Shown here piece by piece: positions 2,588 through 14,990 of a stretch of 64,000 bases of DNA. This DNA is from Desulforegulaceae bacterium (GTDB lineage Bacteria > Desulfobacterota > Desulfobacteria > Desulfobacterales > JACKCP01), in contig JAVETN010000005.1 of NCBI GenBank assembly GCA_034006035.1, positions 1 through 64,000 of the forward strand, in the 5' to 3' direction. Numbering within the stretch: position 1 is the stretch's first letter; each line of letters opens with the position of its first letter. Both the position numbers and the translations under genes were made by a program. The notes below the pieces were generated by a model, which saw nothing but the letters and a program-made list of their open reading frames with translations, did not search any database and was not told the origin of the DNA.

Positions 2588-3229
2588 TTATATCTTTGGT
2601 TCCCGGCTTTTAATTTCCCAGGGTTCAACTTCATTTATATTTTCAACTTCTTCCCAACCTGTAAACATTGCTTTTATGTGAGCTGTCCAGGTGTGTCCTG
2701 TGGTTGTCATATAAATATGGATGATTAAAAAAAGTACAAAAGCAAAAGCACCTATTGTGTGAAGAGCTCCAAGAACAGCTAAATCGGTAAAAAACAAATC
2801 TTTGGGAAGCTCATTGTAATAATAATAAAGAAATCCTGTAATAATTTGATAGGGAATTAAAAGAGAAACTATTACAAGATAGGTGATTCTTTGAAGAGGA
2901 TTGTGCTTTCTTCTTTTGCTTTTTGGAACAGGGTGGGGATGGCCCTTGAAAATATTAAAAGAATAATAAAGTATTACATCAATCATTTTTTTCATTGTTG
3001 GAATATATTGTTTCCATTCCCCTGTAATTATAAGCCAGAAAACAATGAAAATAAATAAAATCAGCCATGTCCAGGCAGCATAATTGTGGATATTAAAGGC
3101 GTTTTCAAATCCAAATAAAGTAAATGTGCTGTGGATTTCAAACCCTGTTACAATAAGAAGAATTATCAATCCCCCCTGGAGCCAATGCCAGAATCTTTCA
3201 AATCTTGTATAAAGATAAATTTTTTCCAT
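2588..3229 (-). CDS. Membrane cytochrome b (b561/hydrogenase type), partner of the octaheme cytochrome
   Basis: A 213-residue integral membrane protein with four hydrophobic segments at roughly 12-32, 46-68, 115-137 and 152-175. Paired histidines lie in or next to them (FERFWHWLQGG, NIHNYAAW, LGALHTIGAF, LIIHIYMTTTGH), the pattern of di-heme cytochrome b subunits in hydrogenases, formate dehydrogenases and thiosulfate reductases. It starts 3 nt after the stop of the octaheme cytochrome gene, so the two are surely co-transcribed. The inferred role is electron transfer between the quinone pool and the periplasmic multiheme cytochrome. The ATG at 3229 is the only sensible start. Confidence 0.85.
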   Translation of the reverse strand: MEKIYLYTRFERFWHWLQGGLIILLIVTGFEIHSTFTLFGFENAFNIHNYAAWTWLILFIFIVFWLIITGEWKQYIPTMKKMIDVILYYSFNIFKGHPHPVPKSKRRKHNPLQRITYLVIVSLLIPYQIITGFLYYYYNELPKDLFFTDLAVLGALHTIGAFAFVLFLIIHIYMTTTGHTWTAHIKAMFTGWEEVENINEVEPWEIKSREPKI

Positions 3230-3232
3230 TTT

Positions 3233-4819
3233 TTAGTCCTTTTTTGAAGATGAAAATATTCTGATTAATCCATGAACAAAAACAACCCCAAGTGATAAAA
3301 ATATAAGAGCAAATCCGCCTTTATCTATCAGGCCGAACTTGTCCCTTCCAGGCATATAAAACCCAGCCAGTTTTTCCAGTCTTCCATTTGGAGAATGGCA
3401 TTGTACACAAGTAAGAGAATCTTTGGCCGGTGCAACCATATGGGTTATTTGAAAATGGTATTCTGTATCTATAAATTCATATTCTCCGCTGTATGGAAGA
3501 TCCATATAATCCATGGCTGTTTGAATAGCATTCCCCCAATGAAAATTTGACCAGTAAGAGGTATTGTTCTTTCCATAAAGATGAACTGCAGCCATTTTGT
3601 TGTTTATTTTGTCATAGGGCTGTTTTGCCTTGTGTACTTTAAAAGGATAAATTCTTGATTTTTCGTCATTCATATCGCCCATTACACAATTTAGTTTTAT
3701 AGGTGAATTTGAAGGATCTATTTCATCTGTTAAAAGAACGTATTCCAGGGAACCATTGTACCAGAAATATTCAGGCTCAACATTTTTTTCCCAGGTAAAA
3801 TCTCCTTTTTGGGATGAATATTTAATTCTTTGCATTTCTTCATCCATTTCAACATAGGGCTTTCCATCTTTTAGGTCTCCGGCAGTTGACCAGTCCCATT
3901 GCATTTTAGTTGGATTTTGTCTTGCAAAAGCAGGAATATGACAGGCCTGACAAGAAACTTTATCAGTATGGTCATTTAATTTTTTTACATTTTTATGGGG
4001 TGAGTCAGTGTGGCAGGAAACACAGGAAATTCTTTTTACCATATCTGAATCAAGAACAGATTTTCTATCTGTAAAAGCAGGTGTTTTATAACAGCGGCCT
4101 GCAATTTTATGATCAACTGTGGTGTGACATCTTGCACAGGAAAAATCTCCTCCGTCTTTGGACATATGAACATCTAAATCATAGGGAGGATCAATTAATG
4201 AACTGTCAAGATCTCCGTGTTTTACTCCGTCTCCTCCGCCTCCGTAAAAATGGCAGGCTCCGCAATTGTGTCTGGTTGGAAGTCCTACACTTTGAGCAGA
4301 TTTGTTCAAATCAACTTTTTTATAAAGTTCGTCTCCAAAATATTTGTCTTCTAAGGCTGGATAACCTGCATCTGTTGGAAATTTTTTATATTCACGGCTT
4401 TGCTCATGACAAACAAGACAATCTACTTTTTGCTCATTTGTGAAATCAAAATTATTATCTTTCCAGCCGTATCCTGAATGACATGAAGTGCAACGAGCCT
4501 CGTTGCTTGCTATGTTCATTCAGAAATTGTTCATGGTAATTCCACCTTTTCCCATTTTTCCGGTTTTGTCTGCTCCGCATTCCCAGGACCAGTGAATGGT
4601 GTCGTGAATTTGTTTTGATGCGTCGGTATGACAAAAAATGCAAGCACTTGTTACTTCTTCAGGGGTTCCAAATTTTTGCTGAAGAAGGTCAATTTTATTG
4701 TGATCTGCTGTGGTCCAGCTTCTGTAATCAGAAGAATTTGCCTCTGTTACTATAAAAGAAGCCGGCAGCAGATAAGCACAAGTCGCCAGTAAAAGATAAA
4801 CAATAAGTTTTTTTTGCAT
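3233..4819 (-). CDS. Octaheme tetrathionate reductase-like cytochrome c with in-frame UGA (selenocysteine)
   Basis: Reading TGA 4520-4522 as Sec100 gives 528 residues. An export signal (about 1-27) is followed by CIFCH at 60-64, Sec at 100, then CTSCH 110-114, CLVCH 134-138, CGACH 186-190, CARCH 228-232, CVSCH 266-270, CQACH 290-294 and CVQCH near 471-475. That is exactly eight heme motifs. A C-terminal membrane helix (about 501-521) anchors it. The context NNF-Sec then SNEARCTSCHSGYGW matches the octaheme tetrathionate reductase family. In characterised members, from memory, that position is a cysteine close to the active-site heme. The frame is unchanged across the TGA. Without read-through the downstream part would have no signal peptide and the upstream part only one heme. 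A purine-rich GGGGGAAAAG ribosome site precedes the ATG. The true substrate (tetrathionate, nitrite, hydroxylamine or other) is unknown. Confidence 0.82.
4490..4522 (-). promoter_or_regulatory. Candidate bacterial SECIS element after the UGA
   Basis: On the minus strand, UGA at 4522-4520 is followed after 13 nt by a perfect 7-bp stem GCAACGA / UCGUUGC (4506-4490) closed by the triloop GGC. The loop starts 20 nt after the UGA and its first two bases are G. Bacterial SECIS models, as I recall them, require a hairpin inside the coding sequence, an apical loop roughly 16-37 nt after the UGA, and a G in the first two loop positions. All are met. SelB recognition is inference. Confidence 0.65.
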
Positions 4820-6356: not shown

Positions 6357-7214
6357 TTAATAGAACCAGGAAAGGCCCATTCTTAACTCATCACTTCTGT
6401 GGTTGTAGTCCAGGATAACCTCGCTGTAACCATGGAAATATTGTAAGTAAAGAGTGGGGTTAAACGTTGTCCAGCGCTGGATCCTATATTGTAATCCAGC
6501 CGTGGCATTGCCTTTATTAAAAGGGATTCCGTATTTTCCCGGGCGAAAATTGAATTGAAAATCCAACCCGTCTCCAGATTGATGTTTAAGAATGTTTTTT
6601 ATCCAAAATCCAAAATCCCACCAGCCAAGATAATCATTAATATCTCTGTTTTCTCTTCCTTGGTAAAGGGTTAAAGGCCAGATATGAGTATACCAGTACA
6701 AATTCATCTCAGATATTTTTGTGGTTTGCATAAATCTTACAAACAAACGATCCCATGATCTGGCTTTTGGTCCTGAGGTGCCGTTGGAAAGATGCCAGTA
6801 TCCAAGATCAGCAGACAAAAACCACTTGTTTTCTTTTACAAAGCGGTAAAAAACTTCAGGTTGATAATTGTTATCATAGGCTGGATTTTGGTCTTCATAT
6901 ATATTCCAGAGTATGAGATTGGTAAAAGATACATAAAGATCTGTCTGGGTAAATAAACGGTATTTAAAACTGTATTGTAATTTAAGGTCATTGCTGCCAA
7001 CCACAGCGTAATTCATTCTATGCATGGAAAAAGGGCTTTCACGGTAATTTCTAAATACCCTTTCTTCGATTAATTTCTGGCGGTTTATTGAGTTTTCAGT
7101 TAATTCTTTACGTTTTTCTACTTTTTCTGTGTTTTCAGTTTTTGCAAGGCCAGGTACTGACAGAAAAGCTAGAATTAATAGAAAAAAACAACTTGATTTA
7201 TAAATCTTACCCAT
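6357..7214 (-). CDS. pldA: Outer membrane phospholipase A (OMPLA)
   Basis: A 285-residue outer-membrane beta-barrel hydrolase that removes acyl chains from mislocalised phospholipid. A signal peptide (cleavage after GLA, about 24) precedes the barrel. The active-site loop reads WHLSNGTSGPKARSWDRLF near residues 150-168, giving the catalytic His and Ser in the expected H-x-S-N-G arrangement. In E. coli the third residue is Asn in SRSWNR; here the matching residue is Asp. The C-terminus ends in aromatic FY as expected for a BAM substrate. A second OMPLA relative lies at 33117-34286. Confidence 0.85.
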   Translation of the reverse strand: MGKIYKSSCFFLLILAFLSVPGLAKTENTEKVEKRKELTENSINRQKLIEERVFRNYRESPFSMHRMNYAVVGSNDLKLQYSFKYRLFTQTDLYVSFTNLILWNIYEDQNPAYDNNYQPEVFYRFVKENKWFLSADLGYWHLSNGTSGPKARSWDRLFVRFMQTTKISEMNLYWYTHIWPLTLYQGRENRDINDYLGWWDFGFWIKNILKHQSGDGLDFQFNFRPGKYGIPFNKGNATAGLQYRIQRWTTFNPTLYLQYFHGYSEVILDYNHRSDELRMGLSWFY

Positions 7215-12599: not shown

Positions 12600-14990
12600 C
12601 TATTGGTTTGTGCTTTGTTCTGAGCTAATCACTTCTACTGATACTTCAGCAATATTATCAGGTAAATTTGAAAACACAGCCATAAAAGGTATTGATTTAC
12701 CTACACTTAGTTTTGAGTTTATATTATTGTCCCCGTTTGGTTTGTTTAGTTCGGCATCAATATCTTCCTGGGTCATATTTTTAAGTTTGATGTCTGACAA
12801 TTGGTTTCCTGCATAAAATTCTTTTTTTGCAACAATGGTTTTATCCATAGATAAAAGCTCTGACTTTAATTTTATTTTTCCAACAGGATGGGAGTAATTA
12901 TTTTTTAATTCTCCTGTTAATATCATTAAGTATCCGAGTTTATCCGATTGAACAATCCTTGGCTCATTAACTATTGTACCAATTTTAAGGTTGCCGGGAT
13001 CAGGAATTGCCGTTGTTTTGTCTGCTTTTTCAATCCAGGGCAGTTTTATTGGAAAATTTTCAAGTAAACTTGTCTGGGTGGCAGCGTAAAACAATCCACC
13101 TATTATAATTCCAAGAATGATTAATATATAAATAATAAACTTGAAAATCCCTTCTGATTTTTCCTTTGATTTTTCTTCTGGCTTATCATCTGATTCATCT
13201 GAAGCTTTGATGGATTCTTCTTCAAGATCCATGGCAATTGCTGAATCAGAAAGTTGAGGTGAGATTTCTTCTTCTAGTTTTTCAGAGGCATATTTTGTTT
13301 CACTGAACTCATCTGCAAAAACTTCCCGGCCCGAATCTTCTTCAAGATCAAAACTTATTTCAACTTCTTCTTCTTCTGTTTCATCAAAATCCAAATCAAA
13401 TGAAATTTCTTCCAGCTCATCTTTTTTGGGTTCTGAGGAGTCTTCCATTTCCAGCTTTTCCCCATTTGAATCAAGATCCAGGTCAAACATTAAAGAATCT
13501 TCATCATCTTCAAGACTAAGCTCCAGGCTTTCTTCATTGTCTGTAAGGCTTTCAAATTCCAGTTCAAGCTCTTCTTCAGTATCTCCAAAATCAAAATCTT
13601 CTATTTCAAGCTCAAGTTCTTCTTCATCTGAGGAACTGAAAAGATCTGTATCTTCGGTAAGATCAAGATTAAGGTCTAGATTTAACTCTTCCTGGTCTAG
13701 ATTGTCTGAAGTTTTTTCAAATTCCTGGTCAAAATCAAGATCAAGGTCAAGCTCTTCTTCTACCTCAAAGGAAAGTTCGTCTTCGTCAAGGTCTGTGTCT
13801 TCAACTTCAAAAGAAAGCTCAAGTTCATCTTCAGAAAAAATTTCTTCATCTTCTTCATCTTCTTCTTCTAAGCTATCTTCGTCAAGGTTAAGGGAAAATT
13901 CTGGTTCTTCTTCAATCTCTTCTTTAAGTTCTGGTTCTTCTTCAATCTCTTCTTTAAGTTCTGGTTCTTCAGCCAAACTCTCATCTTCAAAAATTAAATT
14001 AAATTCATCTTCAATTTCTTCTTCTTCAGACAGGGTAAGTCCAAGGTCAAGTTCTTGAGCTGGGTCTTCTTCTTCATCAAAGTCAATGGAAAGTTCCTCT
14101 TCACTTGGTTCTTCTTCATCAAAGTCAATGGAAAGTTCCTCTTTACTTAGCTCTTCTTCACCAAAGTCAAGGCAAAGCTCTAATTCCTCATCAATTGATT
14201 CAGTATCTTCTTCAAATTCCAGGTCATCAATATCAAGGGAAAATTTTTCTTCTGGTGAGTCTTCTTCAAGATCTAAAGAAATATTTCTGTCTTCTTCTGT
14301 GAATTCTTCCTGATCAAAATCTGAGAGGCTTAAATCACTTAAATCCTCTTCAATTTCTTCTTTTTCAGGAGTTTCTTCCACTGATAAATCAAAATCATCT
14401 TCTTTATCATCAGTAAATGTAAAAGGGATATCTTCTTTTTCATCATCGGGTTTGGAATCAGGCTCAGAGGTTGTTTTGTCCAAATCTTCAGAAAAATCGC
14501 CAATTTCAGTATCAAAATCAAGAGAAAAATCGTTTTGCCCGGGAACACTTATTTCGTCATTGTCTTTTTCGATTTCTTCAATATCTATGAAGTCTTCGCC
14601 AAAGTCTTTTTTGTCTGAAATTTCTTCTTGGTCATCAGAAAGAAAATCATCATCAAAAATAAGGTCACTGCTTTCATCAGAAAGCGAAAAATCAAGTTCA
14701 TCCTCAGGGGTTTCAAACTCTTCATTGCCAAATTTAAAGTCCCCATGCTCTTCTAACAAAGAATCTGATTCTTTATCTGAATCCTTAAACTCGTCTGAGC
14801 CGGGTTCATCTTCCCCAAAAAAATCATCTTCAAATTTTTCTTCCTCTTTTTCCTCCCCAGGAAGAATGTCAGGGAAAACCTTAAAGATATTACCGCATTC
14901 TGAACATTTGACCTTTGTACCTGTGGTCTTGATTTTGCCAGCCGGAAGCTTGTATCTGGTCTGACAGGCTTCGCAGGTTACAATCCTCAT
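12600..14990 (-). CDS. MJ0042-type zinc-ribbon / DUF3426 membrane protein with a very long acidic linker
   Basis: 796 residues in four parts. Residues 1-40 form a zinc ribbon (CEACQTRYKLP, then KCSECGNIF). About 45-620 is an extremely acidic low-complexity linker of Glu/Asp/Ser/Leu/Phe with short repeats such as ELSIDFDEEE and PELKEEIEEE. A single membrane helix follows at about 630-650 (IFKFIIYILIILGIIIGG). The C-terminus is a DUF3426-like domain (LKIGTIVNEPRIVQSDKLG). Such zinc-ribbon/DUF3426 proteins usually have much shorter linkers. Function unknown. GAGAGGC precedes the ATG. It lies 12 nt after hpt. Confidence 0.75.
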   Translation of the reverse strand: MRIVTCEACQTRYKLPAGKIKTTGTKVKCSECGNIFKVFPDILPGEEKEEEKFEDDFFGEDEPGSDEFKDSDKESDSLLEEHGDFKFGNEEFETPEDELDFSLSDESSDLIFDDDFLSDDQEEISDKKDFGEDFIDIEEIEKDNDEISVPGQNDFSLDFDTEIGDFSEDLDKTTSEPDSKPDDEKEDIPFTFTDDKEDDFDLSVEETPEKEEIEEDLSDLSLSDFDQEEFTEEDRNISLDLEEDSPEEKFSLDIDDLEFEEDTESIDEELELCLDFGEEELSKEELSIDFDEEEPSEEELSIDFDEEEDPAQELDLGLTLSEEEEIEDEFNLIFEDESLAEEPELKEEIEEEPELKEEIEEEPEFSLNLDEDSLEEEDEEDEEIFSEDELELSFEVEDTDLDEDELSFEVEEELDLDLDFDQEFEKTSDNLDQEELNLDLNLDLTEDTDLFSSSDEEELELEIEDFDFGDTEEELELEFESLTDNEESLELSLEDDEDSLMFDLDLDSNGEKLEMEDSSEPKKDELEEISFDLDFDETEEEEVEISFDLEEDSGREVFADEFSETKYASEKLEEEISPQLSDSAIAMDLEEESIKASDESDDKPEEKSKEKSEGIFKFIIYILIILGIIIGGLFYAATQTSLLENFPIKLPWIEKADKTTAIPDPGNLKIGTIVNEPRIVQSDKLGYLMILTGELKNNYSHPVGKIKLKSELLSMDKTIVAKKEFYAGNQLSDIKLKNMTQEDIDAELNKPNGDNNINSKLSVGKSIPFMAVFSNLPDNIAEVSVEVISSEQSTNQ

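Follow-up and report, generated by a model that had tools for sequence, protein, structure and literature searches.

We identified a gene for a predicted selenocysteine (Sec)-containing octaheme c-type cytochrome of the octaheme tetrathionate reductase (OTR) family at positions 3233..4819 (minus strand) of the window, by which we mean the whole stretch of 64,000 nucleotides analysed (contig JAVETN010000005.1, Desulforegulaceae bacterium). Translation gives a read-through frame of 528 codons (528 amino acids with UGA as Sec) that ends at a stop codon. The sole interruption of this frame is a TGA at codon 100 (4520..4522, minus strand), in the protein context TMNNF-U-MNIASNEARCTSCH. A sequence-only reading had noticed the lone TGA and gave no strand; the gene reads along the minus strand, starting at 4819 and ending at 3233.

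That reading had called the protein octaheme tetrathionate reductase-like, and the family-model search bears this out. The product scores 603 bits against TIGR04315 (cut-off 375) and covers profile positions 1-440 of 440. Residues 44-488 align with Shewanella oneidensis OTR (1SP3, one solved relative; E 4e-122). The read-through product contains eight CxxCH motifs (residues 60, 110, 134, 186, 228, 266, 290 and 471), of which the first precedes the TGA and the other seven follow it. An N-terminal hydrophobic leader and a C-terminal hydrophobic segment are visible on inspection of the sequence, as had also been proposed.

Residue U100 aligns with Cys64 of 1SP3, which lies ten residues ahead of the heme-2 motif at 74 (1SP3 numbering). 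The corresponding heme-2 attachment motif is CTSCH (residues 110-114; 4478..4492, minus strand), and by homology this heme would be the catalytic one. Lys200 (4220..4222, minus strand) aligns with Lys153 of 1SP3 and is the presumed lysine axial ligand of the active-site heme. We take Lys153 to be the axial lysine of OTR, which agrees with the conservation of the Lys200 position, invariant across an eight-sequence alignment. Heme II has been named as the catalytic heme of OTR (PMC4484225), and an axial lysine from outside the CxxCH motifs is reported for the OTR active-site heme (PMC12285233). We treat the locus as a putative Sec variant within TIGR04315/OTR because the family model does not hinge on the residue at codon 100; a strict requirement for cysteine would fail. 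An AlphaFold2 model of the read-through protein, built from a shallow alignment of 8 sequences with hemes absent, was discarded (pLDDT 42.7, pTM 0.35).

Within a few bases downstream of the OTR gene lies a gene for a cytochrome b561-family membrane protein (Ni_hydr_CYTB; PhsC-like; 2588..3229, minus strand). A b561 gene occupies the position immediately downstream, in the same orientation, in 25 Sec-type and 53 Cys-type relatives. This recurrence suggests that the b561 protein is a quinol-oxidising membrane partner that supplies electrons to OTR. The genome also encodes dsrA (605 bits), which makes sulfur-oxyanion metabolism plausible; together with the nearest named relative, a Desulfovibrio MAG, dsrA suggests a sulfate-reducing lineage. 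Elsewhere, the window encodes an outer membrane protein of the phospholipase A1 family (PF02253, 98 bits; 6357-7214, minus strand). It also encodes a 796-amino-acid protein with a CxxC zinc-ribbon-like N-terminus and a very long acidic low-complexity stretch (12600-14990, minus strand). Open frames antisense to the latter gene, such as 13426-14058 (plus strand), are a by-product.

We sought relatives in three whole-genome searches whose samples overlap, covering 58 genomes of the order, 291 of the class and 297 of the phylum. Many relatives from these searches have exactly one internal TGA. In 43 of the 43 core-family genes fetched with an inner TGA, the codon falls at the NN[F/Y]C column (a few genes read NSFU), and this sharing of one column places the codon-100 TGA beyond chance. 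A read error is answered by the TGA at the same column in 42 further core genes, which come from other genomes and reach full family-member scores. All other core homologues resolved at this column have Cys (TGC or TGT). The sequence-only reading had placed the family's cysteine here (NNFC) and proposed an alignment; the alignment places Cys at the site in 1SP3 (Cys64) and in all core Cys homologues. The 43 Sec and about 76-77 Cys genes are fetched loci chosen with emphasis on TGA carriers and thus do not estimate frequencies. Every interruption among the TIGR04315 matches listed above the cut-off is a TGA; neither TAA nor TAG occurs. The sole non-TGA interruption among the matches listed is an in-frame TAG in a weak, distant relative that scores below the cut-off (L150, G341:C15:16200-19400, 179 bits). 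On these comparisons, the case for reading UGA codon 100 as selenocysteine is strong.

The sequence right after the UGA, GCAACGAGGCTCGTTGC, forms a perfect 7-bp hairpin with the loop GGC. This candidate bacterial SECIS (bSECIS), here termed type A (GCAACGA-GGC-UCGUUGC; 4490..4506, minus strand), has its loop 20 nt past the UGA. In PMC13188914, the bSECIS rules are a loop of 3-9 nt, a G in the first two loop positions, a distance of 16-37 nt from the UGA and an MFE <= -7.5. The type A hairpin lies within these rules, with its GGC loop and 20-nt spacing. An identical 17-nt hairpin folded by itself has an MFE of -7.5 kcal/mol, and the extended hairpin of the codon-100 gene one of -11.0 kcal/mol. 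All 43 of the 43 core Sec genes pass the same rules, 18 with a type A hairpin and 25 with a second form, type B (CTGGTGC-AGGT-GCACCAG), at a fixed distance of 24 nt from the UGA. Searches with the Rfam model SECIS_1 (RF00031) gave zero matches in this genome and likewise zero in 14 control genomes.

In both hairpins the nucleotides themselves are conserved. Type A codons +6, +7, +9 and +10 (AAC, GAG, CGT and TGC) do not vary across 19 rows (18 after de-duplication), with proteins that share only about 39-59% identity with the product of the codon-100 gene. Unlike the type A rows, NWPR-type Cys homologues use several codons for Arg. Four genes have U-A in place of the outer C-G pair of type B; this compensatory substitution may reflect a single event. 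A loose hairpin test was passed by 9 of 77 Cys homologues, only one of which (L102) has a type A hairpin. At the loop position, almost every Sec form encodes Ala or Cys, whereas Cys forms usually have Pro or Asp. The 3' end of the type A stem shares bases with the first codon of the heme-2 CxxCH, and the 3' arm of type B lies inside the heme-2 CxxCH codons. The same bases therefore serve both RNA structure and heme attachment.

A check for selA, selB, selC and selD, suggested by the earlier reading, found all four in this genome. Of the three findings which that reading had named as refuting it, none came up. The gene for tRNA-Sec (selC, 81 bits) lies on the same contig as the window, 7 kb past its end, and SelB (365 bits), SelA (613 bits) and SelD (352 bits) are encoded in the genome. 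SelD itself contains a UGA (L075, G000:C11:6312-7235) in the context ASGUAAK, which fits the selenophosphate synthetase motif UxxK given in PMC13188914. SelB scores above the cut-off in 57 of 62 sampled relatives, and a presence this near to universal cannot separate Sec from Cys carriers. Three genomes (G041, G269 and G128) have a Sec-type gene and no SelB match above the cut-off, perhaps because their assemblies are incomplete. One of them, G041, is reported to be 97% complete, encodes a Sec-type OTR (L055, G041:C11:67870-69147) and has as its best SelB-model match an EF-Tu-like protein below the cut-off; either a missing contig or unusual machinery would account for this gap.

Sec and Cys appear to have been exchanged repeatedly. 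Mapping the residue on a protein tree with the motif columns masked gives at least 11 changes for 119 rows, and 10 changes for a 90-row tree. Because SH-aLRT support varies between branches, the count is only approximate; the well-supported branches demand at least 7 changes for the Cys label. Each SECIS type occurs both with and without a b561 neighbour. Either descent from an ancient ancestor with later losses or independent arrival at the few hairpins compatible with the protein sequence could explain this spread.

Two Cys homologues retain traces of a SECIS. L102 (G193:C622:4884-6248), which has TGT at the site, carries a fully intact type A hairpin, and we interpret this hairpin as a fossil SECIS left by a one-base Sec-to-Cys change. 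The type A hairpin of L096 (TGC) has one mismatch. Judged by sequence, both hairpins look as expected for recent Sec-to-Cys changes. In a separate genome (G055), a tandem pair (L107, G055:C72, and G055:C72:76744-78228) places a Cys-type OTR and a b561 gene ahead of a Sec-type OTR with its own b561 gene.

Leaving its substrate aside, the gene product is very probably a Sec-containing enzyme of the OTR family, and we regard actual insertion of selenium at codon 100 as close to certain from the comparative evidence. SelB and tRNA-Sec would insert Sec at UGA codon 100, guided by the hairpin at 4506-4490. The product would be a periplasmic, membrane-anchored octaheme cytochrome, to whose hemes the downstream cytochrome b561 would hand electrons from the quinol pool; we consider this quinol route likely. 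Sec100 would occupy the site of OTR Cys64, next to the lysine-ligated heme 2. As a selenolate of low pKa, it could attack the sulfur-sulfur bond of tetrathionate or a related polythionate, and the hemes would then reduce the resulting Se-S-thiosulfonate intermediate. Selenolate attack on a sulfur-sulfur bond at heme 2 is proposed by analogy with TsdA, in which the heme-site cysteine forms an S-thiosulfonate with tetrathionate (PMC4423706). OTR itself reduces tetrathionate, nitrite and hydroxylamine in vitro (PMC4484225). We think it fairly likely that Sec has a catalytic and not a structural role. That it acts on sulfur-sulfur bonds in preference to nitrite or hydroxylamine is, by the same analogy, a possibility just short of even.

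A different chemistry could be carried out by the same selenoprotein. Sec may be inserted into an enzyme whose main activity is the reduction of nitrite, hydroxylamine or another compound, or which serves as an electron conduit; there Sec may tune the heme pocket as a proton donor, a gate or a protection against oxidation with no bond to sulfur. This explanation competes with the chemistry part of our proposal only, and it is a serious contender that we place somewhat below an even chance. It gains from the nitrite and hydroxylamine activities of OTR and its interaction with STC in S. oneidensis (PMC4484225), as well as from the free interchange of Cys and Sec, whose many changes imply that Cys suffices for function. 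Set against it are the restriction of the core-family column to Cys or Sec, a hint that the site requires a chalcogen nucleophile or ligand, and the presence of dsrA in the genome.

The remaining alternatives concern the UGA itself. If the Sec machinery decoded it largely as Cys or another residue, by misacylation or suppression, selenium would rarely be present; functional Cys homologues lend this idea some appeal, yet the SECIS would then be under no selection over a plain TGC and is nonetheless kept invariant, and we judge it highly improbable. It is more improbable still that the TGA is a real stop in a split gene, with the ATG right after it restarting translation to give two proteins. 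The TGA-ATG sequence is a possible re-initiation site, but the ATG is absent in most TGA-bearing relatives, the SECIS is conserved at the nucleotide level, and a 428-amino-acid part that lacks the signal peptide and heme 1 should be impossible to furnish with hemes in the periplasm. A pseudogene, an assembly error or a genome-wide reassignment of TGA might be suggested by one internal stop viewed alone and is next to negligible given TGA at one column in 43 core genes of many families, the lack of TAA and TAG interruptions among the matches listed above the cut-off, and the continued use of TGA as an ordinary stop, ending 8 of the 37 window ORFs of >=200 codons. It was the return of TGA at one column, in gene after gene, that led us to reject the split-gene, pseudogene and recoding readings.

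The most far-reaching reading of these data would make Sec the nucleophile in catalysis at the lysine-ligated heme of a multiheme respiratory reductase, where it might also ligate the heme transiently. It further holds that Sec and Cys have been swapped many times, that the SECIS is built from codons beside or within the catalytic CxxCH, and that the same two hairpins occur in two deep branches. As a joint claim this is tentative.

Several known systems bear comparison with this one. S. oneidensis OTR (1SP3) is homologous and shares the eight CxxCH motifs, the Lys153/Lys200 position and the NNFC/NNFU site. The protein described here differs in that Sec takes the place of Cys64, its C-terminus carries a hydrophobic anchor, and a cytochrome b561 gene lies next to its own. 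TsdA, a thiosulfate dehydrogenase/tetrathionate reductase, offers a proposed likeness in the S-thiosulfonate of its heme-site cysteine (PMC4423706). It differs as a diheme SoxA-family cytochrome with a Cys-ligated heme, and we neither found nor claim a sequence relation to it.

The sequence-only reading knew of no described example of such a selenoprotein, which is too strong. Table 1 of a May 2026 review (PMC13188914) lists a TIGR04315 tetrathionate reductase family octaheme c-type cytochrome with 1 Sec (WP_331457571.1, 'GenBank annotated'), presumably at the same site as codon 100. In the accessible portion of the review, this entry comes with no discussion of motif, Sec position, SECIS, distribution or function. 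The review also includes ExtKL (NF040886), another multiheme c-type cytochrome with one predicted Sec that belongs to a different family model. The locus is therefore a further member of a listed selenoprotein family. The open-access literature, which leaves most subscription journals outside its coverage, yielded no studies of Sec-containing TIGR04315 members, and our search of it found no mention of Cys64 of OTR. The papers searched did not contain the mapped Sec position, either SECIS type or the minimum of 11 Sec/Cys changes. These, together with the broad recurrence, the fossil SECIS and the operon partner, are the additions made here.

The experimentally verified bacterial selenoenzymes listed in PMC13188914 include thiol-fold oxidoreductases, formate dehydrogenases and hydrogenases, and no cytochrome. 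If our interpretation is true, a multiheme cytochrome that carries Sec in its catalytic heme pocket would extend Sec chemistry to heme reductases. We infer, in line with the sequence-only reading, that Sec may perform a new redox chemistry in an octaheme cytochrome. Natural single-site swaps (L097 and L099 versus L096, L093 and L087; L080 versus L102) provide closely related Sec/Cys pairs that make the role of Cys64 in OTR, and the real substrate of OTR, testable. Annotation pipelines that halt at TGA would split such genes in two.

We also observed in-frame TGA codons in a distant multiheme cytochrome family, which is about 28% identical and scores under the TIGR04315 cut-off. They lie at about residue 275 of L148 (G448:C98:14500-17700) and at residue 406 of L149 (G557:C73:3400-6700), in the context ETYU/HSYU-APPNTVAGHNW, at or close to the alignment column of the OTR UGA. 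L149 passes the loose bSECIS test. This group is possibly a second family of Sec-containing cytochromes.
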